Assembly (NCBI GenBank): GCA_956465555.1
Contig: OY101118.1
Span: forward strand, 496,001-560,000
Reading direction: 5' to 3'
Origin: Nitzschia sp. pyKryTriq1
Taxonomy: Eukaryota > Bacillariophyta > Bacillariophyceae > Bacillariales > Bacillariaceae
Length of the DNA stretch: 64,000 bases
The notes under the pieces were generated by a model that was given only the letters and a program-made list of their open reading frames with translations, made no database searches and had not been told where the DNA came from. Shown piece after piece: positions 17,413-26,648 of this stretch; within the stretch, counting starts at the first letter, position 1; each line of letters opens with the position of its first letter. A program made the position numbers and the translations under genes.

Positions 17413-18972
17413 TCAGTAGAAGTTGTCAGGATCATCCAAATCATCCTGGTCTTCTTGGGGTCCTTGTTGTTCCTTTTCCAATTGCTTCTTTCGAAGGCGT
17501 GCTCGATTCTTGGATTTTGCTTTTTGCTTTTTCGTGGAAACCTTTTGTTGCTTCATTCCCAATTTGGACTGGCTGCCATTCAGATACTCGTCGAGCTTTT
17601 CCTTGAGGCGTTTGCGAGCAATCTTTCGATTCTGTTGCAGTGATCGAGTATCTTGACATTCCACTCGTAGCTGAGTGGGCTCGTGAACTAACAGCACTCG
17701 ATTGCTAGTTTTGTTGATTTTTTGTCCACCGGCTCCGGATCCTCTTACAAATGTCTCTGTCAATTCCTCTTCCAGGAGCTCCACCTCCACCTTTGTTGGA
17801 CGTTCCTCGCTATTTCGTTTTACCTTTCCTTCCGCTCGACTCATGGCCAACGAAATTTCTGACAGTAGCATAGAACGCAACTCGAGATTCGGTAAGACGG
17901 CCACCAGTTCGGACAGTTCATCCAAAGCGTAGTAGTCGCCGGTGGGGACCAAGATGGGGTCTCGACTACGCGACGGATCTTTTCGAACCTCACGGAATAA
18001 CTCCAAAGCCAGTCGAACATAGTTCTCGACTTCAGCCTTGGTAGATTGTGCGGGATCTTGTTGTGCCTCCAACAAGGTGGAAGATAGTTGCTGTAGCTGA
18101 CCATAGGACTCCAACCCAAGAATGCTCTTAATTCGTTCGGCGACCACTTGTTGTCGCTCACGGTTCCAGGCTTGAACTCTGTCCCGCTCTATCTTCCATT
18201 CATCATACGTTTCAATGACTTCGTATATACCTGGTGCGCTAAATACCAAATCCAGCCGAGCATTGCGATCCCAGACAATGCGTTCCTTGTACTTGACGCC
18301 GACAATCCGATGCTCTGGGAGGGCTTTGGTAAGCAAAGTCTCTCCACCTGCGATACTATGGTTGGGTGCATCCATGGGAGATTCCACTGTCTCATCTTCC
18401 AGTCGATCATAGTGTAGAATTGAAAAATCACTTGATTGAAGCATGTAGTCCCACTCAATTCTTCGCAAGACTTCGTTAACTGGAATCAACTTTTCTTTGG
18501 CTGCTGGGATACTATCATCGTCGTCCCAGTCGCTTTTATCGGCAAATAATCGTTCATAGGCAGGACTCGACACATCTTGTAATTTGGACATACGCGCTTC
18601 CACTCCACGGATACCTCTTCCCAGCAAGGCAGCAAGCTCGGCACTGGACCGTTCTTTGTTGCTCCACAATAACTGGTCTTGATCGAGACTCCATTCTCGA
18701 TAGAGATTGGCCATTGGCGGCAGTGTCTCCTCGGCCGCTACTTCATCAGCACCCCCCCCCTTACTCACAAACCCTCGATAATGAGATGACCATGTCACCC
18801 TTCTACTTCTTGCTGTTATAAATGACGTGGAGCGGATCGAGAAGCCACTGGTTAAAGCAGCCAACATCACGAAGAAAGATGATAACAGAACAATATTCGA
18901 GAACGAGGATCTCATTTCATTATTACGCATTCGAAATAAGGGCAATTCTTCATTCGCAAGACTCTGTAGCAT
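17413..18972 (-). CDS. Fusion of SANT-like, DUF504 and GGQ peptide-release/ribosome-rescue domains, probably plastid targeted
   Basis: Single exon, 519 residues. N-terminal signal-type helix (about 24-42) ends in TSGFSIRST, an F-type diatom plastid motif; Met20 (18915) gives the cleanest presequence and may be the real start. Residues 94-133 resemble a SANT/Myb-like helix bundle (WSLDQDQLLW...GVEARMSKLQD). Residues about 163-236 match DUF504: VLRRIEWDYML, a D/R pair HYDR, EHRIVGVKY and IVWDR. Residues about 395-500 are a class-I release-factor GGQ domain with RGSGAGGQKINKTSNRV (GGQ at 415-417) and a strongly basic tail (KQQKVSTKKQKAKSKNR), as in the ICT1/C12orf65-type rescue factors that lack a codon-recognition domain. 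A role in releasing peptides from stalled plastid ribosomes is an inference. The domain order is unusual. Confidence 0.82.
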   Translation of the reverse strand: MLQSLANEELPLFRMRNNEMRSSFSNIVLLSSFFVMLAALTSGFSIRSTSFITARSRRVTWSSHYRGFVSKGGGADEVAAEETLPPMANLYREWSLDQDQLLWSNKERSSAELAALLGRGIRGVEARMSKLQDVSSPAYERLFADKSDWDDDDSIPAAKEKLIPVNEVLRRIEWDYMLQSSDFSILHYDRLEDETVESPMDAPNHSIAGGETLLTKALPEHRIVGVKYKERIVWDRNARLDLVFSAPGIYEVIETYDEWKIERDRVQAWNRERQQVVAERIKSILGLESYGQLQQLSSTLLEAQQDPAQSTKAEVENYVRLALELFREVRKDPSRSRDPILVPTGDYYALDELSELVAVLPNLELRSMLLSEISLAMSRAEGKVKRNSEERPTKVEVELLEEELTETFVRGSGAGGQKINKTSNRVLLVHEPTQLRVECQDTRSLQQNRKIARKRLKEKLDEYLNGSQSKLGMKQQKVSTKKQKAKSKNRARLRKKQLEKEQQGPQEDQDDLDDPDNFY

Positions 18973-21894: not shown

Positions 21895-23454
21895 TTATTG
21901 TTTACGGGCCTCTGCTGCTCGGGCGTGTCCCTCCAATCCTTCCAGTCGAGCCATTACAATACTGTCGCCTACCATTCCTTGTGAAGCTGCAGCATCGTCG
22001 ACTCTCATCCACGTTCGGATTCTCAAAAAGTTGAAGACGCTTAATCCTCCGGTATACCGTCCAGTTCCACCCGTTGGTAATGTATGGTTGGGACCCGCAC
22101 CGTAATCTCCCAGCACTTCGGCGGCGTGTTCTCCCACAAACAAACCACCATAATTGGCACAGGTTTGTCCTACTGTCTGAGCATCTTTGGTTTGAATCTC
22201 CAAGTGTTCGGGAGCAATGTCGTCCGAGATTTTGATACATTCTTCAATCGACTTGCATTCTACTGCAAAACTTTGTTTCAAGGCTTCCAGAGCTGTCGAA
22301 CGATTGGGCTCTGGCAATGCTTCAATTTGTTGTGCGACTTCCTTATCGACTTCTTCAATCATGCTGGGATCTGTACTCAAGAGAATGGCCCTGGCTACGA
22401 CATCGTGTTCGGCTTGTGCAATCAAATCAGCAGCCACGACCTTGGCATTGGCTGTTTCATCACAAATGACCAGGACTTCCGAAGGTCCCGCCAACATGTC
22501 AATGCCGCACTTTCCATTGACCAAGGATTTCGCGGCAGTCACCCATTTGTTGCCGGGTCCACAAATGACATCACATCTCGGGACCACCCCGTCGATACCA
22601 AACGCCATGGATCCAATGGCTTGGGCACCACCAACGCACAAAAACAAATCCACGTTGGAAATGTGAGCTGCTGCCATGGTAATCGGAGCCGGTCGAGGTG
22701 AAGCTAGAACGACCGTTTCACAACCCGCTGCTCGGGCAGTCACCGCCGTCATGAGCACCGAGGAGGGCAGGGGGTATCTTCCTCCCGGAGCATAGCAACC
22801 AGCCGCTATTCAGACAACAATAAGAATAAGAATTGTACAAACATGAGAAACCTTTTCCAATCGTCGTACCATTCACACCATAGAAATAGTGTACAGTATG
22901 ATACACTGCGAGTAGACTACCATTATGTACTCACCTCGACAGGGGCTCACGGTATGTCCCGCCTTGCCTCCAGGAATATCCATTTCCATATCCACCACAC
23001 TCTTGCGTTGCATTTCCGCAAACGCCTTGACCCGCCCATGGATATTGGTGAGTGCCACTCGTTCCGCGTCCGTCAATCCTTCGAACGCCGCCTTGCATTC
23101 TTCCTTGGAAACGACGAATTGAGTGGCGTCCTGAGGAACATCACCGAGACGCTTGGCCACCGTCAGGAGAGAATCTGGATCGACCATGCCCTTAGTATCG
23201 TCCACCACGAGTTCTTCCAAAATCGCCCTGGCTTGTCCCAATGCTGTGGGATCGACGGGGTCTTTGATTTCCAGACCGATTTTGTCGGGAGTGACGCGGT
23301 TTAATACTCCAGTCATGATGGTGTTTTTGCGAGTAGTGGGAGCGTGTGAGTGAAGGAAGGTGGTTCTTGTTTTGGAGGACGAAGCGGTGAACGCAAGAAC
23401 TTTCGATGCGAGATACGAGACTGATAGGATCCAAACGATAGATCGAAGGAACAT
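21895..23454 (-). CDS. hisD: Histidinol dehydrogenase, plastid targeted
   Basis: Catalyses the last two oxidations of histidine synthesis (L-histidinol to L-histidine, NAD+, Zn2+). Exon 1 is 23454..22935 and exon 2 is 22805..21895; the 129-base intron has donor GTGAGT and acceptor GAATAG. The product is 476 residues. The N-terminus has a signal peptide (FLRSIVWILSVSYLASKVLAF) and LAFTASS, a plastid-import motif. Conserved blocks are GCYAPGGRYPLPSSVLM, the NAD-region VGGAQAIGSMAFG, CGPGNKWVTAAK, DMLAGPSEVLV, QAEHD, the catalytic E-H pair in DIAPEHLEI and GAGPNHTLPTGG. All catalytic regions are present. The gene diverges from the LeuCD gene. Confidence 0.95.
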
Positions 23455-24006: not shown

Positions 24007-26648
24007 ATGAGATATCAAGTTTCCGTGGCTGTTCTCGCTACTTTCGTCGTGGGAGTTTCGGCCTTTGTTCCCCGAACGAGCCGTGTTTCCTTTGTGCCTT
24101 CTGTCACCAGCTTGAATGCCGAAAGCAGCAGTAAGCCCCGCACCTTGTACGACAAGATCTGGGATGACCACCTGGTCGACGATGATGGTATGTCGACTCT
24201 CTTGTACGTGGATCGTCACTTGGTGCACGAAGTGACGTCTCCCCAGGCCTTTGAAGGCCTTCGTTTGGGAGGCCGAGGCGTCCGTCGCCCTGATTGTACC
24301 TTGACGACAGTCGACCACAATGTCCCCACTGAAGATAGAAGTCAATTGATTGACGTTAAGACCTTTATTGAAGAGACTGCCAGTCGCACACAAGTCATGC
24401 AGTTGGAACAAAACGTCCAAGATTTCGGATTGAAGTATTTCGGCATGGCCGACGAGCGTCAAGGAATTGTGCACATTATTGGTCCGGAACAAGGATTCAC
24501 CTTGCCAGGCTGTGTTACAGTCTGTGGTGATTCTCACACGGCCACTCATGGAGCCTTTGGGGCCCTGGCCTTTGGTATTGGGACCAGTGAAGTCGAACAC
24601 GTCCTCGCGACTCAAGTAAGTTCTTCGGACGAAAGAGGTGCATTTTGCAGTTTTTCTATTTTTGATGGACACGTACATTGTCATCATCTCACAATTATTT
24701 GTTTGTGCCGTGCCTCGTTACATTTTCCTACCTAGACTTTGCCTCAAACCAAAACCAAGAACATGTTGATTCGCATTGATGGCGAGTTGAACGAGTGTGT
24801 CACTTCCAAGGATATCATTCTTCACATTATTGGAATTATCGGAACTGCCGGTGGAACTGGTTACACTATCGAATTTGCTGGAAGTGCCATTGAAACCTTG
24901 AGCATGGAAGCCCGTATGAGTATCTCCAACATGGCCATTGAAGCTGGTGCCCGTGCCGGAATCATTGCCCCCGATGAAATTACCTATGAGTACTTGAAGG
25001 GGCGACCCATGAGTCCGTCTGGAGAAGATTGGGAAAAGGCTGTCGCATACTGGAACAGTCTCAAGACTGACGAGGGCGCTGAATTTGATAAGACCATCGT
25101 TATTGATGCCAAGGATATTGCTCCTACCATCACATGGGGAACCAGTCCTCAAGATGTCGCTCCCATTTCTGGAACCGTCCCTGTCTTTGATGCTGGTGTC
25201 TCCCCGGCTCGAGCGGTACGTACTTTTCGGTTGTATTGCTACAGAATCATAATATTATTGTATCGTCCACGTGGATAATTCTCTCACATTTGTACGCATT
25301 GTCAATCTGCTACTACGTACAGGCTGGTATCAAGCGTGCCTTGGCATACATTGGTTTGGAGGAAGGGCAAAAATTGGAAGGAGTCCCCATCGAGAAAGTG
25401 TTTATCGGATCTTGCACCAATGGACGTATTGAAGATATCCGCAATGTCGCTGCCATCGCCATGGGACGAAACGTTGCCGACGGTGTTCACGCCATGGTTG
25501 TTCCTGGGTCGGGATTGGTGAAGAAACAAGCGGAGGAAGAAGGATTGGACCGGATTTTGATTGATGCTGGATTTGACTGGAGAGAGCCGGGATGCTCCAT
25601 GTGCTTGGCCATGAACCCTGACAAACTTAAGCCTCAGGAGCGTTGTGCCTCCACTTCCAACCGTAATTTTGAGGGCCGACAAGGTAATGGCGGTCGCACT
25701 CACCTCATGTCTCCTGCCATGGCGGCTTCCGCTGCCATCGCTGGCGCTTTGGCTGATGTCCGCAAGTACCCTTTCTTGGGAGACCCATCGACGGATCCTC
25801 GTATCATCTCCAAGTCGACGAGCCGAGTGTTTACCACCGAAAGCTACAAGTCTCCCGGCGCTGTCATTTCTCCCGTTCCTCCGTACCTGGCCAAGGGTGG
25901 ATCTGACGCATCTGTCGGTGGAGCGGCTGGTCTTCCCAGGTTTGAGTCGTTGACGGGCGTTGCTGCTCCCTTGGATATTGAAAATATTGATACCGATATG
26001 ATCATCCCCAAGGAATTCCTCAAGACCATCAAGCGCGCCGGATTAGGTTTTGCCGCCTTTGCTGAATTGCGATACGAGAACCCAGACCAAGTTGCCACCA
26101 TTGGAGAAGAGGTCGCCAAGGAACGAAGTGACTTTGTTTTGAACAAGGAAGGATACAAGGGCAAGACCAAGATTTTGATTGCCGGAGATAACTTTGGCTG
26201 TGGTTCCAGCCGTGAGCACGCACCCTGGTCGATCAACGATATGGGAATCCAATGTATCATCAGTACTTCCTTTGCTGACATTTTCTACAACAACTGCTTT
26301 AACAATGGAATGTTGCCTCTTACACTTCCCCGCGTTCAAGTTGAGGCCTTGTTGGAAGATGCCGCAACCCCCAACACTGAAGTCACCGTCGACTTGATCA
26401 ACCAAAAGGTCATCCGCCCCAACGGGGAAGAATTCTCGTTTGAAATCGACCCTTTCCGAAAGCGATGCTTGGTGAATGGATTGGACAAGATTGGCCTGAC
26501 TTTGGAAAAAGTCGATCTCATTTCGTCATTTGAGACCAAGCGATCGAAGCAATTCCCATGGTTGGATGGAGCTGCCCTCCGAGTTCCTGACGTTGTGGCC
26601 ATGTACCCCGACTCGGAATACTGGAAGAAGGAAGGTGTTTCCGCATAA
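24007..26648 (+). CDS. leuCD: 3-Isopropylmalate dehydratase, fused large and small subunits, plastid targeted
   Basis: Isomerises 2- to 3-isopropylmalate in leucine synthesis. Exons 24007..24615, 24736..25215 and 25323..26648 all join in phase 0, giving 804 residues. The presequence is classical: a hydrophobic signal then VSAFVPRTS. The LeuC part has [15 protein letters not shown] and the 4Fe-4S cysteines C394 (GSCTNGR), C454 and C457 ([10 protein letters not shown]), spaced 60 and 3 as in bacterial LeuC. A linker near 530-600 leads to the LeuD swivel domain with [13 protein letters not shown] and [15 protein letters not shown]. Bacterial and plant enzymes use two separate subunits; the single-chain form resembles fungal Leu1. 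The Met at 24007 is chosen because the signal peptide starts there; an upstream in-frame Met lies at 23986. Confidence 0.95.

Follow-up and report, generated by a model that had tools for sequence, protein, structure and literature searches.

A candidate plastid ribosome-rescue factor with a C12orf65/mtRF-R-type GGQ domain and an MJ1316 domain in one diatom reading frame

The question of how organelles distinguish ribosomes stalled by RNA breakage from ribosomes stalled for other reasons is raised by a gene in the 64,000-nucleotide stretch studied here (the window; positions 496,001 to 560,000 of contig OY101118.1, assembly GCA_956465555.1) of the diatom Nitzschia sp. pyKryTriq1, in which a releasing enzyme and a predicted reader of RNA ends appear to share one chain, an arrangement that would allow a direct test of how organelles recognise breakage stalls. 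We propose that the product hydrolyses peptidyl-tRNA on stalled plastid ribosomes in the manner of mtRF-R and is directed by its MJ1316 domain to broken RNA, most likely to 2′,3′-cyclic phosphate ends, and we put the probability of this reading at roughly 0.45.

This kind of fusion was already published in 2019: Burroughs and Aravind (PMC6514570) described a C12orf65-like domain joined to MJ1316 and proposed that it couples release with organellar RNA repair. We found no functional test of such a fusion. The present analysis establishes the reading frame, the identity of its domains, the family type of the GGQ domain and the features of the leader. New here are the assignment to mtRF-R, a plastid-type leader given together with its background rates, the finding of just one MJ1316 match, the failure to detect RtcB and the genome context.

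The reading frame and its GGQ domain

The open reading frame (ORF) occupies positions 17413 to 18972 of the minus strand, stop codon included, exactly where a first-pass annotation made from the sequence alone had placed it, and runs uninterrupted for 519 codons (519 amino acids). All features of the protein described below are on that strand. In a Pfam search of the whole protein, RF-1 (PF00472) matches residues 394–500 with 75.8 bits against a cut-off of 35 (E = 3.3e-21), and MJ1316 (PF04457) matches residues 164–236 with 48.4 bits against a cut-off of 26.3 (E = 1.5e-12). Nothing else was matched at E ≤ 10 apart from an insignificant M-repeat match. We take DUF504 to be the former name of MJ1316, so that the DUF504-like block annotated at about residues 163–236 is recovered by the profile. 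NCBIfam adds only matches below cut-off, to RF1, RF2, PrfH and ArfB models and, at residues 165–237, to a hypothetical-protein model of 79 positions. The annotated architecture is borne out: a GGQ hydrolase of organellar type is joined in one ORF to a DUF504/MJ1316 domain of the RNA-associated kind, behind a plastid-type leader.

Could the two domains belong to two genes? Codon scores, trained on eight ORFs of the same genome (3,296 codons), are above zero in the frame of the ORF in all 11 steps beginning at residue 81 or later, the inter-domain linker covered; the final step is shorter and contains the terminal stop. Of 55 competing windows in other frames and on the opposite strand over the same steps, three are slightly positive (0.02, 0.05 and 0.08 bits per codon). 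The leader steps (residues 1–60 and 41–100) are slightly negative, and another frame scores best there. Since the frame is open throughout and the codon signal continues through the linker, the fusion ORF reads as one gene. The idea that two genes, or an assembly artefact, have been read as one, or that the MJ1316 part is a decayed, functionless remnant, is thus very improbable: besides the unbroken frame and the codon signal across the linker, it is opposed by the preserved core motif of MJ1316, described below, and by the publication of the same type of fusion (PMC6514570). The linker itself, residues 256–385 (17818–18207), is helical by structure prediction, and a PDB search of it returned no relative by sequence.

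The RF-1 domain (17473–17793) is defined by Pfam, PDB sequence matches, alignment and Foldseek. Its catalytic GGQ motif begins at residue 415, as annotated (residues 415–417, 17722–17730), and it is followed by a C-terminal tail, residues 467–504 (17461–17574), whose basic composition had also been noted: residues 464–505 hold 14 K/R and 2 D/E. The best PDB sequence match is human C12orf65/mtRF-R (7a5h_C, E = 1e-22, with a gap-free alignment of 105 residues), and the second is another C12orf65 homologue (2rsm_A, E = 1.7e-17). Further matches are weaker, with mtRF1 next at 1.5e-10 and ArfB chains at 0.21 or worse. For a model of residues 246–519, Foldseek likewise ranks 7a5h_C first (E = 3.2e-4; six of 151 matches have E ≤ 0.001), with a superposition that is loose overall.

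In an alignment of ten GGQ domains, the catalytic loop keeps its G, G, Q and N in every row. The fusion protein lacks the long insertion helix that a class-1 ArfB (L102) carries between the last strands of the domain; this helix is missing from C12orf65 and present in ICT1 (PMC6514570). The annotated "C12orf65/ICT1-like" domain therefore narrows to C12orf65/mtRF-R, because the insertion helix is missing and no ArfB chain scores better than E = 0.21. By these sequence criteria, the domain is of the C12orf65/mtRF-R type, not of ArfB/ICT1 class 1.

No codon-recognition domain was found, in that Pfam places no further release-factor domain in the fusion protein. The NCBIfam equivalog cut-offs for full-length RF1 and RF2 are missed by a wide interval (prfB, 57.2 against 370 bits; PRK00591, 53.6 against 400; prfA, 52.9 against 423.25), as is that for PrfH (44.1 against 166.65). 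In these respects the protein resembles human mtRF-R/C12orf65 (7a5h, 2rsm), which has the GGQ motif and the basic tail, no insertion helix and no codon-recognition domain. Human mtRF-R differs in being a mitochondrial chain of 166 amino acids that is not known to carry MJ1316 and that works with MTRES1 as a separate protein. ArfB/ICT1 is also a GGQ rescue factor with a basic tail and without stop-codon recognition, but its class-1 member has the insertion helix between strands that the diatom protein lacks.

The diatom's own genome (a 40.65-Mb assembly of 20 contigs) gave seven PF00472 matches, which we read as five loci. Contig C1 has an RF1-like gene and C12 an RF2-like one; C4 has a plastid-type RF1, C10 has an ICT1-like gene, and the fusion is the fifth. 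The names RF1 and RF2 were assigned by motif. None of the five is a stand-alone C12orf65. The C10 gene (C10:625990-626513; locus L010, 1492–2348, minus strand) is ICT1/ArfB-like, apparently has two exons and has a leader ending SAA|F, which suggests a plastid ICT1-like factor. Split exons kept it and L008, another locus of the own genome, out of the ten-row alignment; the ArfB-type insertion can nevertheless be read in the translation of L010, unlike in that of the fusion.

The leader and the probable compartment

The host genome contains 72 matches to the chlorophyll-binding family. One chlorophyll-binding ORF, compared with the PDB, matches light-harvesting complex (LHC) proteins and fucoxanthin chlorophyll a/c proteins, and the leaders of several such ORFs end in A-x-A-F or S-A-F. 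These matches and their leaders fit a red-type secondary plastid.

For diatom plastids, the ASAFind rule predicts import from a signal peptide with F, W, Y or L as the +1 residue (PMC4329603). The leader of the fusion protein agrees with this rule, as applied by our own script rather than by SignalP or ASAFind. A signal-peptide-like segment at residues 20–43 (18844–18915), defined by our leader rule, is hydrophobic and is followed by ALTSG|FSIRSTSFITARSRR, with F44 at +1; SGFSI, which the annotation gave as the end of the N-terminal signal, stands at residues 42–46 and fits a plastid-type leader. The transit-peptide-like stretch that begins at F44 (18754–18843) is positively charged, its 30 residues including 6 K/R, 0 D/E and 10 S/T. 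The leader passes our rule when read from Met15 or from Met20, but not from Met1. F51 is a second possible +1 residue and passes the loose form of the rule, as F44 does.

A strict form of the rule was applied first, and the loose form was devised after its results had been seen. The strict form is passed by the fusion protein, by 2 of 20 LHC-locus ORFs, several of which look like fragments without a true N-terminus, and by 6 of 90 window ORFs (fusion included; four with F at +1). The loose form is passed by the fusion protein, by 12 of 18 LHC ORFs (two of the 20 loci gave no ORF), by 5 of 90 window ORFs (fusion included) and by 10 of 480 ORFs from prokaryote loci. The fusion protein is nuclear-encoded and probably imported into the plastid.

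Its closest studied relatives are mitochondrial, and our leader test is imperfect; the protein might accordingly act in mitochondria, or in both organelles, as human C12orf65 does. We consider this unlikely, given an endoplasmic reticulum (ER)-type hydrophobic segment, F at +1 and then a stretch rich in S/T and K/R. A hydrophobic ER-type segment with F at +1 is not the usual mitochondrial leader.

Among the five release-factor and SmpB loci scored by the loose rule, a passing ORF occurs in L008, L010 and L013 and none in L006 and L007: the SmpB, ICT1-like and C4 RF1 ORFs pass, and the C1 and C12 release-factor ORFs fail. Because these three leaders pass, several plastid rescue routes may coexist. 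The plastid-type leader of the fusion, together with SmpB and ICT1-like genes that have similar leaders, would assign it to a chloroplast that has several such routes. The SmpB gene is nuclear, on contig C1 (L013, 1486–2298, minus strand), and has the plastid-type leader VSS|FSP.

The MJ1316 domain and the nature of the stall

If the GGQ domain supplies the hydrolase, what would the MJ1316 domain add? Found by Pfam at 18265–18483, it is the sole PF04457 match in the own genome at E ≤ 1. We aligned it with 26 matches from 148 genomes of the phylum to which a record titled Lokiarchaeota belongs (presumably the Asgard phylum; two of the matches, L094 and L095, are below cut-off) and with two bacterial domains (L029, L030). 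In these 29 rows the most conserved motif is P219-x-H221-R222 (18307–18318), with P219 and H221 common to 29 of 29 domains and R222 to 28. The AlphaFold model has a predicted local distance difference test (pLDDT) of 89–95 in blocks 160–199 and 220–239 and of 52–68 between them, and is poor outside the MJ1316 core.

The bacterial domains were obtained with a DNA pattern for a VWDxxxRLDxVF-like sequence, which we take to be the MJ1316 end motif. It returned 11 viral and 39 genome stretches, of which two (L029, L030) look like MJ1316 on translation and are confirmed by the hidden Markov model; the other 48 were judged by eye, a few of their frames (e.g., L018) being too short to judge. Both proteins (L029, 4012–7023; L030, 3160–6060; minus strand) have about 1000 amino acids and combine an MJ1316 domain of the same Pfam family with a 2H phosphoesterase (PF13563, 2_5_RNA_ligase2), an endonuclease/exonuclease/phosphatase domain (PF03372) and a poly(A)-polymerase-type domain, whose match in L029 is below cut-off. 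They thus have RNA-end enzymes in place of the release-factor domain of the diatom protein. By analogy, this domain company supports an RNA-end role for MJ1316, which has been described as recognising 2′,3′-cyclic phosphate ends of RNA (PMC6514570). The "RNA- or tRNA-sensing" module of the first-pass annotation can be sharpened to a putative sensor of such ends. The annotation was right as to architecture and its guess at a plastid rescue factor is reasonable, whereas its suggestion of a stramenopile invention is conjectural; its interpretation as a whole is partly supported. In the archaeal genomes MJ1316 also occurs in short ORFs without the other parts, and at two archaeal loci (L070, L074) it is followed in frame by 317 and 304 residues of no identified family.

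The C-terminal GGQ domain would enter a plastid-type ribosome that has stalled or, like mtRF-R, a split large subunit; there its glutamine would hydrolyse the peptidyl-tRNA, with the basic tail holding rRNA. MJ1316 would bind broken RNA ends, most likely the 2′,3′-cyclic phosphate of cleaved mRNA, tRNA or rRNA, and end binding would direct the hydrolase to those ribosomes that RNA breakage has stalled. We infer hydrolysis on stalled ribosomes by analogy with studied relatives; import into the plastid, recognition of RNA ends and recruitment through it are predictions. The published fusion likewise has both domains in one chain, and the same link between release and organellar RNA damage was proposed for it; the passages and legend consulted give it neither a taxon nor a domain order nor a plastid leader (PMC6514570). 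The present gene has a plastid-type leader and a helical linker.

In structure 7a5h, mtRF-R and MTRES1 sit on a split large subunit that holds peptidyl-tRNA; the pair acts after stalling on depleted aminoacyl-tRNA, and in vitro release by mtRF-R on 70S and 55S ribosomes was negative (PMC8786322). Yeast Pth3 prefers antibiotic-stalled, no-go-like mitoribosomes (PMC7940416). It is possible, though less likely, that the diatom protein is a general mtRF-R-type plastid rescue factor in which MJ1316 is a mere tether to RNA or ribosome, perhaps in the role that MTRES1 has in humans, with no sensing of damage. The type of the GGQ domain, the short archaeal ORFs that hold MJ1316 on its own and the failure to find RtcB in the own genome would all agree with a tether; the preserved P-x-H-R core and the RNA-end enzymes that accompany MJ1316 in the two bacterial proteins would not.

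The nearest tested logic is that of bacterial PrfH–RtcB2, in which a release factor is likewise tied to damaged RNA with 2′,3′-cyclic ends: PrfH releases ribosomes that colicin E3 has damaged, and the 2′,3′-cyclic break is closed again by RtcB2 (PMC9223846). These are two separate proteins, unlike the single diatom chain, and PrfH has retained a form of the codon-recognition domain (PMC6514570), which was not found in the diatom protein. It is tempting to see in the diatom protein a one-chain counterpart of PrfH–RtcB, a damage-sensing rescue factor of a secondary plastid that would deliver its GGQ only to ribosomes with 2′,3′-cyclic ends left by stress or by an attacker's cleavage, but this stronger form of the proposal is tentative.

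Several results weigh against damage-steered rescue in the plastid. Evidence from the leader is of moderate strength: when the first 75 residues are shuffled 5000 times, 150 of the products pass the strict rule (64 with F), and when the first 60 are shuffled, 361 of 5000 pass the loose one. Neither a PDB sequence search nor Foldseek (0 of 253 matches with E ≤ 0.001) turned up a solved MJ1316 structure or one that resembles the domain convincingly. A search of one genome, the diatom's own, gave no RtcB, and prfH by itself left E. coli unprotected (PMC9223846). From these last two points it follows that a PrfH-like pathway would need another ligase.

Such a ligase might be that of contig C3 (L124, 150–3416, minus strand), a 1088-amino-acid ORF with a T4-Rnl1-type domain (PF09511, RNA_lig_T4_1, E = 8.9e-9) and, by eye, a hydrophobic N-terminal stretch. 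The fusion would then be part of an RNA-repair complex, freeing the ribosome and passing the broken RNA to the ligase, for which PrfH–RtcB2 is a bacterial precedent (PMC9223846). Nothing ties this ligase to an organelle or to the fusion gene, however, and RtcB, the ligase of the precedent, is the one not found here; we regard a repair complex as improbable.

The SANT-like segment, searches for relatives and neighbouring genes

A SANT-like helix set annotated at residues 94–133 (18574–18693) is located as described, WSLDQD beginning at residue 94 and KLQD at 130, but its SANT identity gained no support. The fragment has no Pfam match at E ≤ 0.01, and the whole protein none to SANT/Myb at E ≤ 10. 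Against the PDB at E ≤ 10 the fragment finds one chain, 9d01_A ("a-iTHR-201", E = 0.14), which is not a SANT/Myb protein. AlphaFold, without homologues in this region, models helices there at pLDDT 54–76. Thus, Pfam, the PDB sequence search and the AlphaFold model all leave the SANT reading unsupported. Because the model is of low confidence there and the segment was not modelled and structure-searched alone, the residues may still form a small helix-turn-helix bundle.

Relatives of the whole fusion were sought by tblastn. In viral contigs, three pattern stretches and no relatives were obtained; 30 phage records and 41 plasmid records were returned, none covering 80% of the query. Among the matches listed (25 of the 30 and 25 of the 41), all fall within residues 410–469, the GGQ core.

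Two neighbours in the window also have leaders of the kind discussed above. On the minus strand at 21895–23454, a histidinol dehydrogenase is apparently split across two ORFs, the first of which (22873–23454) has the leader VLA|FTAS and a Pfam match to histidinol dehydrogenase below cut-off. Aconitase is usually mitochondrial; on the plus strand at 24007–24735, an ORF fragment of the aconitase family (PF00330, E = 4.6e-51) has the plastid-type leader VSA|FVPR.
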